Assembly (NCBI GenBank): GCA_015231755.1
Contig: JADGAZ010000001.1
Location: 124,001-188,000, forward strand
DNA length: 64,000 bases
Direction: 5' to 3'
Origin: Magnetococcales bacterium
Lineage (GTDB): Bacteria; Pseudomonadota; Magnetococcia; Magnetococcales; Magnetaquicoccaceae
Shown: in pieces, positions 15,433-20,948 of the stretch
How positions within the stretch are numbered: position 1 is the stretch's first letter
Layout of the letters: the number at the start of each line of letters is the position of its first letter
Notes under the pieces: model-generated
The model's database searches: none
The model's input: the letters and a program-made list of their open reading frames with translations, nothing else
Told to the model about the DNA's origin: nothing
Translations under genes and position numbers: made by a program

Positions 15433-18204
15433 ATGAATCAACACATCGCCGTGCCATCCGTTCGTTTGCCCGTTCGTCAGCGTCTCTCTTACCGTCAGGC
15501 CCGGACAGCCGTACTCGTCGGATTGTGTGTGGGACTCTTGCTCGGCCTGGGGCAGGTGGCGGTGGATCTGTTCAAGGAACGGCAACGTATCCGCGCCAAC
15601 ATTGCCCAGATGATGGAGATCATCCGTGATTCGGCGGCCCAGGCCACCCATCATCAGGATTCGGTGCAGGCAGAAAAAGTGCTGGCGGGTCTGTTTCATT
15701 GCCAGGGGGTCCATCAGGCCCATTTGCACACCTCCGGTGGGCTGTCGTTTTTGCAGAAAATTCGTCCCCGTCCCATGACCGGTCTGTTGCGTTGGATGGC
15801 TTCCGGATTGTTGGATGAGGATTTCACCGTCACCTTACCTTTGATCTTCAATGACCAGCCAGCCGGCGATCTGACCATTGGCGTGGACGCCTCCGCGAGT
15901 GCCCGGGATTTTTTGATGCGTGCGGGCTTTACGTTGTTGGGAAGCCTGATTCAGGCCATTTTGCTGGCCACAATCCTGACCTTCATTTTTCACCGTCTGC
16001 TCACCGGCCCCATTTTGAGCCTCGGACGCCAGTTGGCCAGCGTGGATCCCGCCCAACCTGCCCGTCAGCCCATCACCGTGCCTCCCGGACACGCGGGGGA
16101 TGAACTGGGTCTGCTGGCTGCGTTCATCAATCAGGCTTTGGCCCTGTTTGACAATGCCTTGCAGGTTCACAAGGAGACCGATCGGCTGCTGAAACGGACC
16201 CAGTTCAGCGTCGATCAGGCCGCCGACATGATCTGCTGGGTGGAACCCAATGGCCGGTTCATCTATGTCAACGAGGCGATGTGCAAAGCCATGGAGTATT
16301 CCCGAGCCGAACTGCTCGCCATGAACATTGCCCAGATTCACGACGACTGGTCGGCGGCACAATGGGATGAACACCGACGGGACCTGGAAATGGCCCGCAT
16401 CCGCTGCATGGAAACCGTGGTGCGTACCAAGAGTGGCGTCATTCTCCATCTGGAGGTGCAAACCACTCTGCTGGAGATGGAAGGCCATCAGATTCATTGC
16501 AATTTCGCTCGGGATATACGTCCCCGCAAACAGGCGGAACGGGTGATCCGTCGGGCCAATCGTACCCTGTTGACCTTGAGCCATGGCAACGAAACCATGA
16601 TCAAGGCCACCTCGGAACAAGAACTCCTGAAACGGATCTGTCGTTTGATCGTGGAGGAGGGGGGCTATCGCATGGCCTGGGTGGGATTCGCCACCGCCGA
16701 CGGTCGGATTCTGCCCGCGGCCCAGTACGGTTTCGACGATGGTTATCTGGACAACCTGGACATCTCCTGGGACGACGCGGAAAAAGGACGGGGTCCCACC
16801 GGTACGGCGTTTCGGACCGGCAAACCGATTCTGGCCCGGGAGATCCGGTCGGATCCCAATTTCGCTCCCTGGCGTCAGGAGGCCACACGGCGGGGTTACG
16901 TCTCCTCTTTGGCCTTGCCTTTGCCTGTGGATGATCTGTTGCCCCTGGGAACCCTCAACATCTACAGCAGTGCGTCGGACGCCTTCGATCCCGAGGAGAT
17001 CCAACTGCTGGAAAATCTCGCCAACAATCTGGCGTTCGGCATTCTCAAGTTTCGCGAGGCGGAGGAGCGGCGTCGGGCGCAACGGGCCATGCAAATCTCC
17101 GAAGAGAAACTGCTGACCCTGTTTCACCACTCCCCGGACTGCCTCATGACCCTGGATCGGGAAGGATCGGTCCAGTTCACCAACCGGACCGGCTCCCAAC
17201 ATCCCCTCGACTTTTTCCCCCGGGTGCGACTGCCTTATCTGCGGGAACGGATCGCCGAGGTGTTTCAGACCGGTCAGGCGGTGGAGTTTCCCTTCACGGA
17301 CAGCGAATCCGCTTGGTGGGAGGCCCGGTTGGCCCCGATTTTCCACGACGGCAAGGTCTCCGAGGTGTTGGCCGTCTGTCAGGATGTCACCGAAAAACAT
17401 ACCCTTCAGGCCCAGAATCTGCGCAATGCCCGTCTGGCCTCCCTGGGGGTGCTGTCCGCCAGTGTGGCCCACGAGATCAACAATCCCAACAATGCCATCC
17501 AGTTCAATGTGCCGATTCTCTCGGCGCTCTGGGAGGACGCCCGTCCCATTCTGCTCCATGCCCACGAGGCGTCCGGGGCGTTTTATCTGGGTGGCATGCC
17601 GTGCGACGAGGCCATGGAGGTGGTCCCGCGTCTGCTCGACGGCATCCGCATGAGTTCCCAACGCATCCAGGCCATCATCGCCGGACTCAAACACATGGCC
17701 CGTCACGACAAAGGCATCCTGACCCAGAAAATCAATATACAGGATCCACTGCGTTCCGCCCTCATGATCCTGCAAAACCAGATCCGGGAAGCCACCGATC
17801 ATTGCCACTTCAATCCGGCGCCGGCGCCTCTCATGGTGCGGGGCAATGCCCAGCAGTTGGAACAGGCCTTTATCAATATTTTGCAAAATGCCTTGCACGC
17901 CCTGGAAAACCGGTGCCAGCGGGTGGATATCTCCGTGATCCCGGAACCCGATCAGACCCATCTCAAAGTGATGTTCCACGATCAAGGCTGCGGCATCGCC
18001 CCGGAACATCTGAACAAATTGACCGATCCATTCTTTTCCACCAAGACCGAGGCCGGGGGTATGGGTCTGGGTTTGTCCATCACCAAAACCATCATCGAAA
18101 ACCATGCGGGCGTTTTGTCTTTCGAGTCCGAACTGGATCGGGGCACCACCGTGACCGTGCGTCTGCCCCTCGATGTCGAATCCTTGCGCGGAGATCCAAC
18201 ATGA
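15433..18204 (+). CDS. Membrane histidine kinase with PAS, GAF and PAS domains
   Basis: A 923-residue sensor kinase. Two membrane helices (about residues 26-46 and 164-187) enclose a periplasmic region, followed by a HAMP-like linker, PAS (about 255-370), GAF (about 385-545), a second PAS-like domain (about 555-660), and a dimerisation/phosphoacceptor domain with His680 in VAHEINNPNNAI. The ATPase domain has the N box (FINILQNALHAL), HDQGCGI and GMGLGLSITKTII. The HEINNPNN box is typical of NtrB-like kinases that pair with sigma-54 activators. Its stop overlaps the start of such a regulator as ATGA, so the two form a coupled two-component system. The input signal is unknown. Confidence 0.93.
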   Translation: MNQHIAVPSVRLPVRQRLSYRQARTAVLVGLCVGLLLGLGQVAVDLFKERQRIRANIAQMMEIIRDSAAQATHHQDSVQAEKVLAGLFHCQGVHQAHLHTSGGLSFLQKIRPRPMTGLLRWMASGLLDEDFTVTLPLIFNDQPAGDLTIGVDASASARDFLMRAGFTLLGSLIQAILLATILTFIFHRLLTGPILSLGRQLASVDPAQPARQPITVPPGHAGDELGLLAAFINQALALFDNALQVHKETDRLLKRTQFSVDQAADMICWVEPNGRFIYVNEAMCKAMEYSRAELLAMNIAQIHDDWSAAQWDEHRRDLEMARIRCMETVVRTKSGVILHLEVQTTLLEMEGHQIHCNFARDIRPRKQAERVIRRANRTLLTLSHGNETMIKATSEQELLKRICRLIVEEGGYRMAWVGFATADGRILPAAQYGFDDGYLDNLDISWDDAEKGRGPTGTAFRTGKPILAREIRSDPNFAPWRQEATRRGYVSSLALPLPVDDLLPLGTLNIYSSASDAFDPEEIQLLENLANNLAFGILKFREAEERRRAQRAMQISEEKLLTLFHHSPDCLMTLDREGSVQFTNRTGSQHPLDFFPRVRLPYLRERIAEVFQTGQAVEFPFTDSESAWWEARLAPIFHDGKVSEVLAVCQDVTEKHTLQAQNLRNARLASLGVLSASVAHEINNPNNAIQFNVPILSALWEDARPILLHAHEASGAFYLGGMPCDEAMEVVPRLLDGIRMSSQRIQAIIAGLKHMARHDKGILTQKINIQDPLRSALMILQNQIREATDHCHFNPAPAPLMVRGNAQQLEQAFINILQNALHALENRCQRVDISVIPEPDQTHLKVMFHDQGCGIAPEHLNKLTDPFFSTKTEAGGMGLGLSITKTIIENHAGVLSFESELDRGTTVTVRLPLDVESLRGDPT

Positions 18205-19649
18205 CCGAGCCGATCAAAAAAAGTCTCCCCATTGTGCTGGTGGATGACGAGGAGGCTGTGCTGTTCAGCTCGAAGATCCTCCTGAGGACCGCCGATGTCT
18301 CTCCGGTGGTCACCATGACCGATGGACGCACCCTGATGGCGTTTCTGGAGGAGAATGGCGCGGCGGTGGTGGTATTGGATCTGGTGATGCCCTTCACGCC
18401 GGGCACCGAGTTGCTGCCCCGGATCAAGGAGCGGTTTCCGGAGATCCCGGTGATTGTCATGTCCGCCAACCAGGAGGTCAACATCGCGGTCCAGTGCATG
18501 AAGGATGGCGCTTTCGACTATCTGGTCAAACCCACGGAAAACAGCCGGTTCATCTCCTGCGTCAAGCGGGCCATGGAGGTGCGCTCGTTGCGTCGGGAGT
18601 TGGGCACCCTCAAGCAGTATCTCCTCGAAGACTCCTTGCAACACGCGGAAGCCTTTTCCGCCATCATCACCCACAGCCGCAAGATGCGGGCGGTGTTTCA
18701 GTATGTCGAGGCCATTGCCCCGTCCTCCGAGCCGGTTTTGATCATCGGCGAGACCGGCGTGGGCAAGGAGTTGCTGGCCCAGGCGATCCATCAGGTGAGC
18801 CATCGCAGTGGGCCGCTGGTGGCCCTGAATGTGGCGGGATTGGATGACAACATGTTTTCCGATACCCTGTTCGGCCATCGCAAGGGGGCCTTCACCGGCG
18901 CCAACGACAACCGGGAGGGCATGATCGCCGCCGCCGCCGGAGGGTCCCTGTTTCTGGACGAGATCGGGGATCTCAAGGAGTCGTCCCAGGTCAAGTTGTT
19001 GCGTCTGTTGCAGGAGCGCAAGTACTACCCCCTCGGCTCCGACGGCTACATGAAAACCGATGCCCGCATCATTTGCGCCACCAACCGGGATCTGAAATTC
19101 ATGATGGTCGAAAAGACCTTCCGTTCCGATCTGTATTTTCGGCTCTCCTCCCACCAGGTGCGCATTCCACCCCTCAAGGAGCGCAAGGAGGATCTGCCCC
19201 TCTTGACCACCCACTTCATCGAAGAGGCGGCCCAGGCCATGGGCAAGTCCCCCCCGATTCCGCCACCGGAACTGTTTCATCTGCTCAACACTTACGACTT
19301 TCCGGGCAATGTGCGGGAGTTGCGTGCGATCGTCTTCGACGCCGTGGCCCGCCATCACTCCGGAGTGCTCTCTTTGGAGCGGTTCCGGGAGAGCGTCTTG
19401 AGCAATGGCGCTTCCGAAGACACCCTGTCCGTGGATTTGCTGGAAAATCCTTTCAAGCGCTTGAGCGGCAAGCTGCCCACCTTGCGGGAGGCGGAAATCC
19501 TGTTGCTGGAAGAGGCGTTGGAACGGGCCCAGGGCAACAAGAGTCTGGCGGCGACCTTGTTGGGAGTCTCCCGTCAGACCCTCAATTACCGTTTGCAGCA
19601 GTTGAAGAAAAGCGCCTCTTCCCCCCCTGGATTAAACGGGACCCCCTAA
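18201..19649 (+). CDS. NtrC-family sigma-54-dependent response regulator
   Basis: A 482-residue regulator. The receiver domain has DDEEA, phosphoacceptor Asp60 (VVVLDLVMP) and a VKPTEN lysine. The AAA+ domain has Walker A GETGVGKE, the sigma-54-contacting GAFTGA loop, Walker B LFLDEIGD and an arginine-finger region with FRSDLYFRL. A Fis-type helix-turn-helix ends the protein (LAATLLGVSRQTLNYRL). When phosphorylated by the upstream kinase it should hydrolyse ATP to open sigma-54 promoters. Two sigma-54-like elements occur at 10552 and 11010, but there is no evidence they are its targets. Confidence 0.95.
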   Translation: MTEPIKKSLPIVLVDDEEAVLFSSKILLRTADVSPVVTMTDGRTLMAFLEENGAAVVVLDLVMPFTPGTELLPRIKERFPEIPVIVMSANQEVNIAVQCMKDGAFDYLVKPTENSRFISCVKRAMEVRSLRRELGTLKQYLLEDSLQHAEAFSAIITHSRKMRAVFQYVEAIAPSSEPVLIIGETGVGKELLAQAIHQVSHRSGPLVALNVAGLDDNMFSDTLFGHRKGAFTGANDNREGMIAAAAGGSLFLDEIGDLKESSQVKLLRLLQERKYYPLGSDGYMKTDARIICATNRDLKFMMVEKTFRSDLYFRLSSHQVRIPPLKERKEDLPLLTTHFIEEAAQAMGKSPPIPPPELFHLLNTYDFPGNVRELRAIVFDAVARHHSGVLSLERFRESVLSNGASEDTLSVDLLENPFKRLSGKLPTLREAEILLLEEALERAQGNKSLAATLLGVSRQTLNYRLQQLKKSASSPPGLNGTP

Positions 19650-19795
19650 CCTTGGTGATAGGTGATTTTTTTTCGCCCGGCCCCGGGATGTAAAAAAAAT
19701 CTCCACCCCCTTTTATTAGGTTGATAAATATCCACTTCGCTTTATTGCGCTGCGGCATTGTTCCGGATTCACCTGATTCGACGTTTAAAATTTTG

Positions 19796-19833
19796 CACCT
19801 CCTTGCATTGCGGTATGCGGGAGGTGTCTTTTT
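19796..19833 (+). terminator. Rho-independent terminator-like hairpin
   Basis: CACCTCC at 19796-19802 pairs with GGAGGTG at 19820-19826, followed by TCTTTTT. It lies about 150 bases after the response-regulator gene and would isolate the downstream array from read-through. The 17-base loop is long. Confidence 0.5.
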
Positions 19834-19872: not shown

Positions 19873-19898
19873 TTGGCGCGCATCTTGATATATATAAA
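19873..19898 (+). promoter_or_regulatory. Candidate promoter for the hairpin array
   Basis: TTGGCG at 19873-19878 and a run of overlapping TATATA/TATAAA hexamers at 19889-19898 resemble a -35/-10 pair, though the best -10 registers give 14-16 base spacing. It is the only promoter-like sequence between the upstream terminator and the array. Confidence 0.3.
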
Positions 19899-19981
19899 AC
19901 GAACACGGACGAGAGCACGAGATACGGATGTCAGGTGATGTGAGTCGTGCAACATCAAAGTTGTGGTCGTTTGGTAGTACT

Positions 19982-20049
19982 GGTCATGTTGTCACATGAC
20001 CGGATCAAGGGTTGGATACCCTCCCCCCCATCCAACCCTTGATTTTTTA
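19982..20049 (+). repeat. Hairpin module 1
   Basis: First hairpin: GGTCATGT-TGTC-ACATGACC (19982-20001), a perfect 8 bp stem. Second hairpin: ATCAAGGGTTGGAT (20004-20017) pairs perfectly with ATCCAACCCTTGAT (20030-20043). The loop is ACCCTCCCCCCC and a T6 tract follows. Confidence 0.7.
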
Positions 20050-20070
20050 TCTTTCAGTGATTTTCGAGAC

Positions 20071-20135
20071 GGGACGCTTGCGTCCCTGACCAAGGGTCCG
20101 GCCTCCCCCCCCCTCAAGCCGACCCTTGGTTCTTT
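20071..20135 (+). repeat. Hairpin module 2
   Basis: First hairpin: GGGACGC-TT-GCGTCCC (20071-20086). Second hairpin: 20089-20102 pairs with 20118-20130 apart from one bulged C. The loop is about 15 bases, CT, nine C, TCAA. TCTTT follows. Confidence 0.7.
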
Positions 20136-20143
20136 ATCATAGC

Positions 20144-20227
20144 CGGGACAGGGATGTGGATCAAACCACGTCTCCCGCCAGGGGTCCGACCTCCCCCCCC
20201 CTCAAGTCGGACCCCTGGTCATTTTTT
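20144..20227 (+). repeat. Hairpin module 3
   Basis: First hairpin: CGGGA/TCCCG with an inner GTGG/CCAC stem (20144-20177). Second hairpin: CCAGGGGTCCGAC (20178-20190) pairs perfectly with 20206-20218. The C-rich loop is the same as in module 2, and a T6 tract ends at 20227. Confidence 0.7.
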
Positions 20228-20249
20228 GATTGGGTTTCTTCGCTCAACC

Positions 20250-20330
20250 GAGATGGGACGTAGGCTTTGCCGCGTCTCAGGCCAAGGGCTCGACACCACC
20301 CTCCCCCGGACGTCGGCCCTTGGTCTTGAA
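20250..20330 (+). repeat. Hairpin module 4
   Basis: First hairpin: an imperfect GAGA/TCTC-based stem (20250-20278). Second hairpin: 20282-20294 pairs with GTCGGCCCTTGG (20312-20323) apart from one bulged T. The 17-base loop contains CTCCCCC. The T-tract is weak. The module ends a few bases before the stop of the opposing rnhB. Confidence 0.6.
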
Positions 20331-20336
20331 TTCTTC

Positions 20337-20948
20337 TCAATTTCCGTGGATCAGTCGTGCGACAGGCGCGTAGCTTTTGCGGTGGATGGGCGTGACGCCC
20401 AGGGTTTCCATGGCCCGGAGATGTTCGGCTGTGGGATATCCGGCGTTGCGTTCCCAGCCGTAACCGGGATGGCGGATGGCCCATTGGGCCATGAGGGCAT
20501 CCCGATGGGTTTTGGCGAGGATCGAGGCGGCGGCGATGGAGGCGGAGAGTTGATCCCCTTTGATCACGGCTTTGGCGGGACACGGGAGCGCGTCGGGCAG
20601 ATCCCGTCCGTCGATGAGGATGAAATCGGGTCGGATCCATTCGGTCCGGGGGGCGGATGGGGAAGAAGCCTGCCGGGTGGCGCGTAGCGCCGTGATGGCC
20701 CGGGACATGGCCAGCAGGGTCGCCTGTCGTATGTTGATGCGGTCGATTTCGTCGGGATCGGCCAAGGCGATGCCGGTGGCCAGGGCGTCACGCTGAATGC
20801 TTGAGGCCAGGGAGGCCCGTTGGGACGGGGAGAGACGCTTGGAGTCGTCCAGCCCGATGAGAGAGGCGGGCAGGGAGTCCCCCGGAGGCAAAATCACCGC
20901 GGCAGCCACCACAGGTCCGCACAACGGACCGCGACCGACTTCGTCCAC
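20337..20948 (-). CDS. rnhB: Ribonuclease HII
   Basis: RNase HII cleaves RNA in RNA-DNA hybrids and at single ribonucleotides. The protein shows DEVGRGPLCGPVVAAAV with catalytic Asp and Glu, LDDSKRLSPSQR, and DALMAQWAIRHPGYGW. The GTG at 20948 encodes the Val of GVDEVGRG and would remove the first beta strand, so the real start is probably upstream. The frame is open without a stop into the end of rplS, where a CTG at 20993 (giving LEKEQIAAGFSTICG) is one candidate; no ATG, GTG or TTG fits. It is the last gene of the rpsP operon, next to the hairpin array. Confidence 0.9.
   Translation of the reverse strand: MDEVGRGPLCGPVVAAAVILPPGDSLPASLIGLDDSKRLSPSQRASLASSIQRDALATGIALADPDEIDRINIRQATLLAMSRAITALRATRQASSPSAPRTEWIRPDFILIDGRDLPDALPCPAKAVIKGDQLSASIAAASILAKTHRDALMAQWAIRHPGYGWERNAGYPTAEHLRAMETLGVTPIHRKSYAPVARLIHGN

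Follow-up and report, generated by a model that had tools for sequence, protein, structure and literature searches.

The window, a stretch of 64,000 nucleotides from the genome of an uncultured Magnetococcales bacterium (contig JADGAZ010000001.1), contains on its + strand a two-gene operon followed by an array of hairpins. The upstream gene (positions 15433-18204) is an open reading frame for a membrane histidine kinase of 923 amino acids with the domain order PAS-GAF-PAS and Pfam matches to HATPase_c, GAF and PAS. The downstream gene (18201-19649), which overlaps it by 4 bp, encodes an NtrC-type sigma-54 response regulator of 482 amino acids with REC, AAA (GAFTGA) and Fis HTH domains, 97% identical to that of Magnetococcales bacterium nW5bin1, the closest named relative found. 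An intergenic gap of about 690 bp separates the end of the regulator gene at 19649 from the convergent rnhB (ribonuclease HII; 20337-20948, - strand), which is outside the system. The array fills the second half of this gap (+ strand, 19979-20326) and comprises four units, each with a small hairpin followed by a longer hairpin with a C-rich loop.

The small hairpin of unit 1 is found at 19979-20003 and its C-loop hairpin, with loop ACCCTCCCCCCC followed by T6, at 20002-20045. Units 2 and 3 have small hairpins at 20071-20086 and 20145-20176 and C-loop hairpins at 20088-20131 and 20177-20219, respectively, and the two loops are identical (CTCCCCCCCCCTCAA). Unit 4 consists of a small hairpin at 20250-20279 and a C-loop hairpin with ACCACCCTCCCCCGG at 20280-20326; part of its C tract is able to pair, and the unit is more degenerate than the other three. 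All these features are on the + strand. The four tandem two-hairpin units and the identity of loops 2 and 3 had been described in a first-pass annotation made from the sequence alone, and both observations stand. The stems of the long hairpins, given there as 12-14 bp, are somewhat longer, 14-16 bp in units 1-3 and 19 bp with a bulge in unit 4. The T-tracts noted after the first three units are present as T-rich stretches, but a strong intrinsic-terminator tail is found after unit 1 only and there is none after unit 4.

The predicted fold is far more stable than that of shuffled sequences. A region of 446 nt has a fold energy of -189.8 kcal/mol compared with -150.4 +/- 6.6 in dinucleotide shuffles (z -6.0, 0/100). 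Among five orthologous unit 3 copies, compensatory changes affect 5 of 14 pairs and 95.7% of the cells are paired, compared with 19-50% in slid controls; compensatory counts from the mixed-register groups g1_u1 and g2_all were left out. The earlier description of a selected RNA array with covarying stems is borne out. A descriptor of the C-loop hairpin gave 2 imperfect matches in 400 kb of the window genome and 0 in 400 kb of a genome from another family (f8; G024).

A sigma-54 promoter, TTGGCGCGCATCTTGAT, is located at 19873-19889 (+ strand). The same -24/-12 pattern, TGG and then TG ten positions on, is conserved, with no change in spacing, at every one of the 24 array loci that were inspected. 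A promoter belonging to the array had been placed near 19,890; it is there, but it is of the sigma-54 and not the sigma-70 type. Further upstream, AAAATTTTGCACC (19787-19799, + strand) is a candidate activator site of the TTTTGCAC type, a motif that precedes the promoter by 82-84 nt in six genus members and by about 191-196 nt at six loci of the f13 group. The predicted transcript, with a start deduced from the promoter, would begin with a 5' leader (19900-19978, + strand) that has a hairpin region with GGA. In G001, G002, G004, G005 and G009 the GGA is located in the loop of a leader hairpin (e.g. GAGACAAGGATGTCTC) and resembles a CsrA site. The window leader also has GGA (19920-19950), in a hairpin less clear than in those genomes.

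Array and regulator occur together. Both are present in 9 of the 11 genus members and both are absent from two incomplete ones, and a regulator ortholog (about 85% identity or more) is found in exactly the nine members bearing the array. Within the genus no genome has more than one array locus, its place and orientation 3' of the promoter are fixed, and the related modules expected near rnhB in sister genomes are conserved. Among the regulator paralogs examined there is one array per genome. In the window genome (G000; C1, C2, C4, C11, C19 and C25) the sigma-54 response-regulator family has seven close members, and only one of them has an array. No array was found at the six other paralogs, and among 80 loci the regulator homologs from beyond Magnetococcales, those of Geobacter included, had none either. 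From its position and this co-occurrence, the window regulator is presumed to be the activator of the array promoter. In the regulator tree the array-bearing regulators fall into two clades and the label changes at least three times, so the link between regulator and array either is old and has since been lost in places, or arose on two occasions.

Matches to the array by DNA similarity were confined to the genus (9 of 41 genomes). Of the 48 genomes from the order, 25 were found to have arrays, distributed over four families and five genera; several genomes are incomplete, which makes absences soft. The arrays of g2, g9 and g13 have the same anatomy with unrelated stems and were found by reading 3' of more distant regulators. 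One g2 hairpin, for example, has loop CCCCCCCCCTCTAA between the stem strands GTCGAGCCGACCAGGAG and CTCCTGGTCGGCTTGGC, and one g9 hairpin has loop TCTCCCCCCCCCTCTT between ACCAGGAACCCGGTGGCC and GGCTACCGGGTTTCTGGT. A covariance model (R1), seeded by unit 3 of the window and built from five units, detected further arrays in six genomes of f13, where they lie apart from the regulator and have other neighbours. These f13 arrays retain the sigma-54 promoter, the upstream TTTTGCAC-type site and a T-tailed terminal hairpin. The first-pass annotation had included neither the sigma-54 nature of the promoter nor the adjoining regulator, nor the fact that other genera have such arrays with stems of unrelated sequence.

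Some variants were also recorded. G001 (L013) and G002 (L014) have longer arrays of 5 and 6 C-loop units with other kinds of hairpin interspersed, which indicates unit gain. Near LysR-like genes in f13 (L166 at about 2095; L169 and L170, - strand, at about 2122 and 2212) there is an additional hairpin, also conserved, whose loop is CTCCCCCCCCCTCTGA; no sigma-54 site is evident immediately 5' of it, and it is a candidate for a second C-loop RNA or a regulatory element. In family f6 an isolated hairpin (L171, - strand, at about 2189) has the stem strands TTTCAAGGTG and CACCTTGAAA and a loop, CCTCCCCCCCCTCAAA, nearly as in the window.

The loops are conserved and the stems are not. Of the 745 loop letters in 56 hairpins, 71.5% are C and only 6 (0.8%) are G. 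The C-run is 5-10 long (mode 9; 6 to 10 in 48 of the 56) and usually followed by TCAA or TCTA, on stems of 12-20 pairs. The number of units varies between genomes. The array stems were not alignable across genera (MAFFT and RNAalifold, all genera), and structure-anchored tables took the place of an alignment; paired C7 runs, searched for as a pattern, gave too much noise. Because the stems have been replaced while the loop has been kept, the function most likely lies in the loop, which is exposed, rich in C, free of G and presented several times over. C-rich, G-free loops on replaced stems constitute a clean case of loop-only selection.

Pairing of such loops with Shine-Dalgarno regions, as suggested earlier, is plausible, although the accompanying statement that many genes have GGGGAG sites was too strong. 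In the Shine-Dalgarno windows of 282 predicted genes of the window genome, with starts predicted by a simple hexamer model, GGAG is present in 91, GGGGAG in 8 and a run of at least six G in 4. Since G6 runs are rare there, a C8-C9 loop would suit a few genes with G runs rather than generic Shine-Dalgarno sites. Compared with coding sequence, initiation regions show only a weak enrichment of loop pairing, which counts against the antisense reading given below. The window genome has 61 GAGGGGGGG sites, and the 30 loci examined are mostly within or antisense to genes, with few at starts.

The target ranking covers about 12% of the window genome and 400 kb of G024. The strongest loop pairing among the 282 initiation regions of the window genome is with GGGAGGGGGGGAGTGCAACATG of an Rrf2/IscR-type regulator gene (-25.8 kcal/mol), the neighbours of which are a ThiF-like gene and cysK, named by eye from translation. 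This gene is a candidate target of the array RNA. In two families its ribosome-binding site has a run of 6-10 G. Within the genus, 6 of the 10 genomes checked have a run of at least six, up to G10. Family f8 is independent of the choice of this gene; the run is present in 3 of 5 f8 genomes with diverged leaders, and the pairing there (G024 -22.1, G042 -22.4, G037 -24.1) is in each case better than that of every one of the 254 genes that served as background in G024. Despite their arrays, f12 and f13 lack the run, as do nearly all g2 genomes and the genus members G005, G009, G001 and G002. Targets may thus vary by lineage, or the Rrf2-type candidate may be a coincidence. A second candidate, flhG, was rejected because its G-run is kept in the genus only and failed outside. 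In G028 (L025, reverse strand, at about 2900) a G9 run, TGAGGGGGGGGGTG, directly 3' of the regulator stop codon complements the C-loop of the same genome and is possibly a feedback site.

The preferred reading, at a probability of about 0.62, is that the locus encodes a two-component, sigma-54-controlled tandem antisense RNA that acts on G-rich initiation regions, and the array probably yields a small RNA silencing genes with guanine-rich ribosome-binding sites. The kinase would sense a signal and phosphorylate the response regulator, which would then bind 5' of 19873 and turn on the sigma-54 promoter. The transcript, starting at about 19900, would comprise the leader and the four two-hairpin units, with the long stems keeping the C-rich, nearly G-free loops open. 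The loops could then pair with G runs in a few mRNAs, either at the Shine-Dalgarno site or close to it, and block translation, and their repetition would give higher dosage or avidity. The T-tracts and terminator-like stems may give rise to nested or processed forms of the RNA. Sequence establishes the array, its promoter, its linkage to the regulator, its recurrence and the conservation of its loops; transcription, control by phosphorylation, loop pairing and the targets are inferred.

A rather unlikely alternative, and the one that survives best, is a protein sponge. In this reading the RNA is still under two-component and sigma-54 control, but its repeated loops would sequester an RNA-binding protein, either a binder of C-rich loops or CsrA through GGA. 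Titration of this kind is known from CrcZ, which titrates Crc/Hfq, and from CsrB, which titrates CsrA, and the repetition of identical loops would fit it. CsrA is encoded in 46 of the 48 genomes. In most f1 transcripts GGA is about twice as frequent as in mononucleotide shuffles, so binding by CsrA could play a part, and several genomes have the leader hairpin with GGA in its loop. Many of the GGA copies sit in paired stems, however, and the f8 arrays are depleted in GGA (3 compared with 12.6 expected in G037 and 0 compared with 3.4 in G041) yet have kept their C-loops, which rules against a CsrA sponge as a general explanation. Hfq (PF17209) was found in 28 of 30 genomes of other families but was not detected in any of the 18 family f1 genomes (G000-G017), several of which are at least 95% complete; this also counts against a sponge and, beside the B11 precedent described below, in favour of the antisense reading. 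The layout of a sigma-54 regulator followed by an RNA gene resembles cbrAB-crcZ (PMC8871633) and fits a sponge. One specific form of the idea is that the C-loop units bind a protein recognizing C-rich loops, so that a phosphorelay via sigma-54 would control a global RNA-binding protein with a multivalent decoy, its copy number tuned by gain and loss of units. This form is doubtful, and slightly more so than sponging in general; we know of no poly(C)-loop-binding protein in these bacteria.

It is very improbable that the hairpins are a cluster of terminators between convergent genes (regulator +, rnhB -) with no regulatory function, and this reading is disfavoured. The flanking genes are indeed convergent, T6 ends unit 1, and the last units are good terminators in f13 and in some g2 genomes. 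A conserved sigma-54 promoter is nevertheless found 5' of every array inspected, the f13 arrays have different neighbours, and the loops exclude G, which is not a requirement for termination. The R1 search of the 3.84 Mb window genome gave no match beyond the array, which excludes the scattered terminators that the first-pass annotation had named as a possible refutation. Least credible of all is a mobile or repetitive element (REP/BIME-like) with palindromes that have no RNA role, since the tandem palindromes and differing copy number that would suit it are opposed by the one fixed locus per genome in the genus, by covariation together with loop conservation across genera, and by the lack of scattered copies in the window genome.

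If the antisense reading is correct, the locus joins the sigma-54/two-component control of Qrr and CrcZ to a multivalent antisense RNA with C-rich loops like 6C/B11 and NfeR1, a combination not found in the literature searched, in which no described sRNA was found for these magnetotactic-lineage bacteria either. Much of the range of the array is the family without detectable Hfq, and the locus therefore bears on antisense RNA action without that chaperone.

Several known systems share part of this design. CcsR1-4 (the cuckoo RNAs of Rhodobacter) are, like the array, tandem and homologous, four sRNAs with C-rich motifs, but they have another motif, derive from the ccaF1 3' UTR by RNase E processing (PMC8625941) and have no reported sigma-54 promoter. 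The link to CcsR proposed earlier is not upheld, since CCUCCUCCC is absent and a separate sigma-54 promoter site precedes the array, which follows a response-regulator gene instead of originating in the 3' UTR of a ccaF1 (DUF1127) mRNA. LhrC1-5 of Listeria are comparable in being multicopy and induced by a two-component system, with redundant CU-rich loops that include the terminator loop, and Hfq is dispensable for their regulation of lapB (PMC4132741). They differ in that each copy is a gene of its own with a LisR-dependent promoter, in their UCCC motif and in their occurrence in Firmicutes. The type of control predicted for the array is that of Qrr (LuxO) and CrcZ (CbrB), sRNAs turned on by a sigma-54 response regulator (PMC10162802), and crcZ is located 3' of cbrAB (PMC8871633). 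The RNA architecture of both differs from that of the array, and CrcZ sequesters Crc/Hfq.

The RNA itself is most similar to two other groups. No Rfam family reached its gathering score in the window and no bacterial family was significant, consistent with the new family suggested earlier. The best bacterial match below threshold was the 6C RNA (RF01066), over its full length in unit 3 (23.7 bits compared with a gathering score of 47, E 0.82). The 6C RNA, which includes mycobacterial 6C/B11, has two stem-loops, each with six C or more in the loop, similar to those of the array, but is found in Actinobacteria, whereas the array has up to six C-loop units, a sigma-54 promoter and a two-component neighbour. 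In M. abscessus, which has no known Hfq, either C-rich loop of B11 represses eccB4 through a 5' UTR with six G (PMC10470900). The ar14/NfeR1 RNAs of alpha-rhizobia resemble the array in having several hairpins with divergent stems and an identical loop motif, in their case an anti-Shine-Dalgarno one, and NfeR1 silences ntrB via these loops (PMC10746234). B11 and NfeR1 are direct published precedents for loop pairing of the kind proposed here. Their ultraconserved CCUCCUCCC, present in three hairpins, is absent from the window array, which has no Rfam match to them. The best reading of these comparisons is that the array, although it belongs to no Rfam family, would work in the manner of 6C/B11 and ar14/NfeR1.
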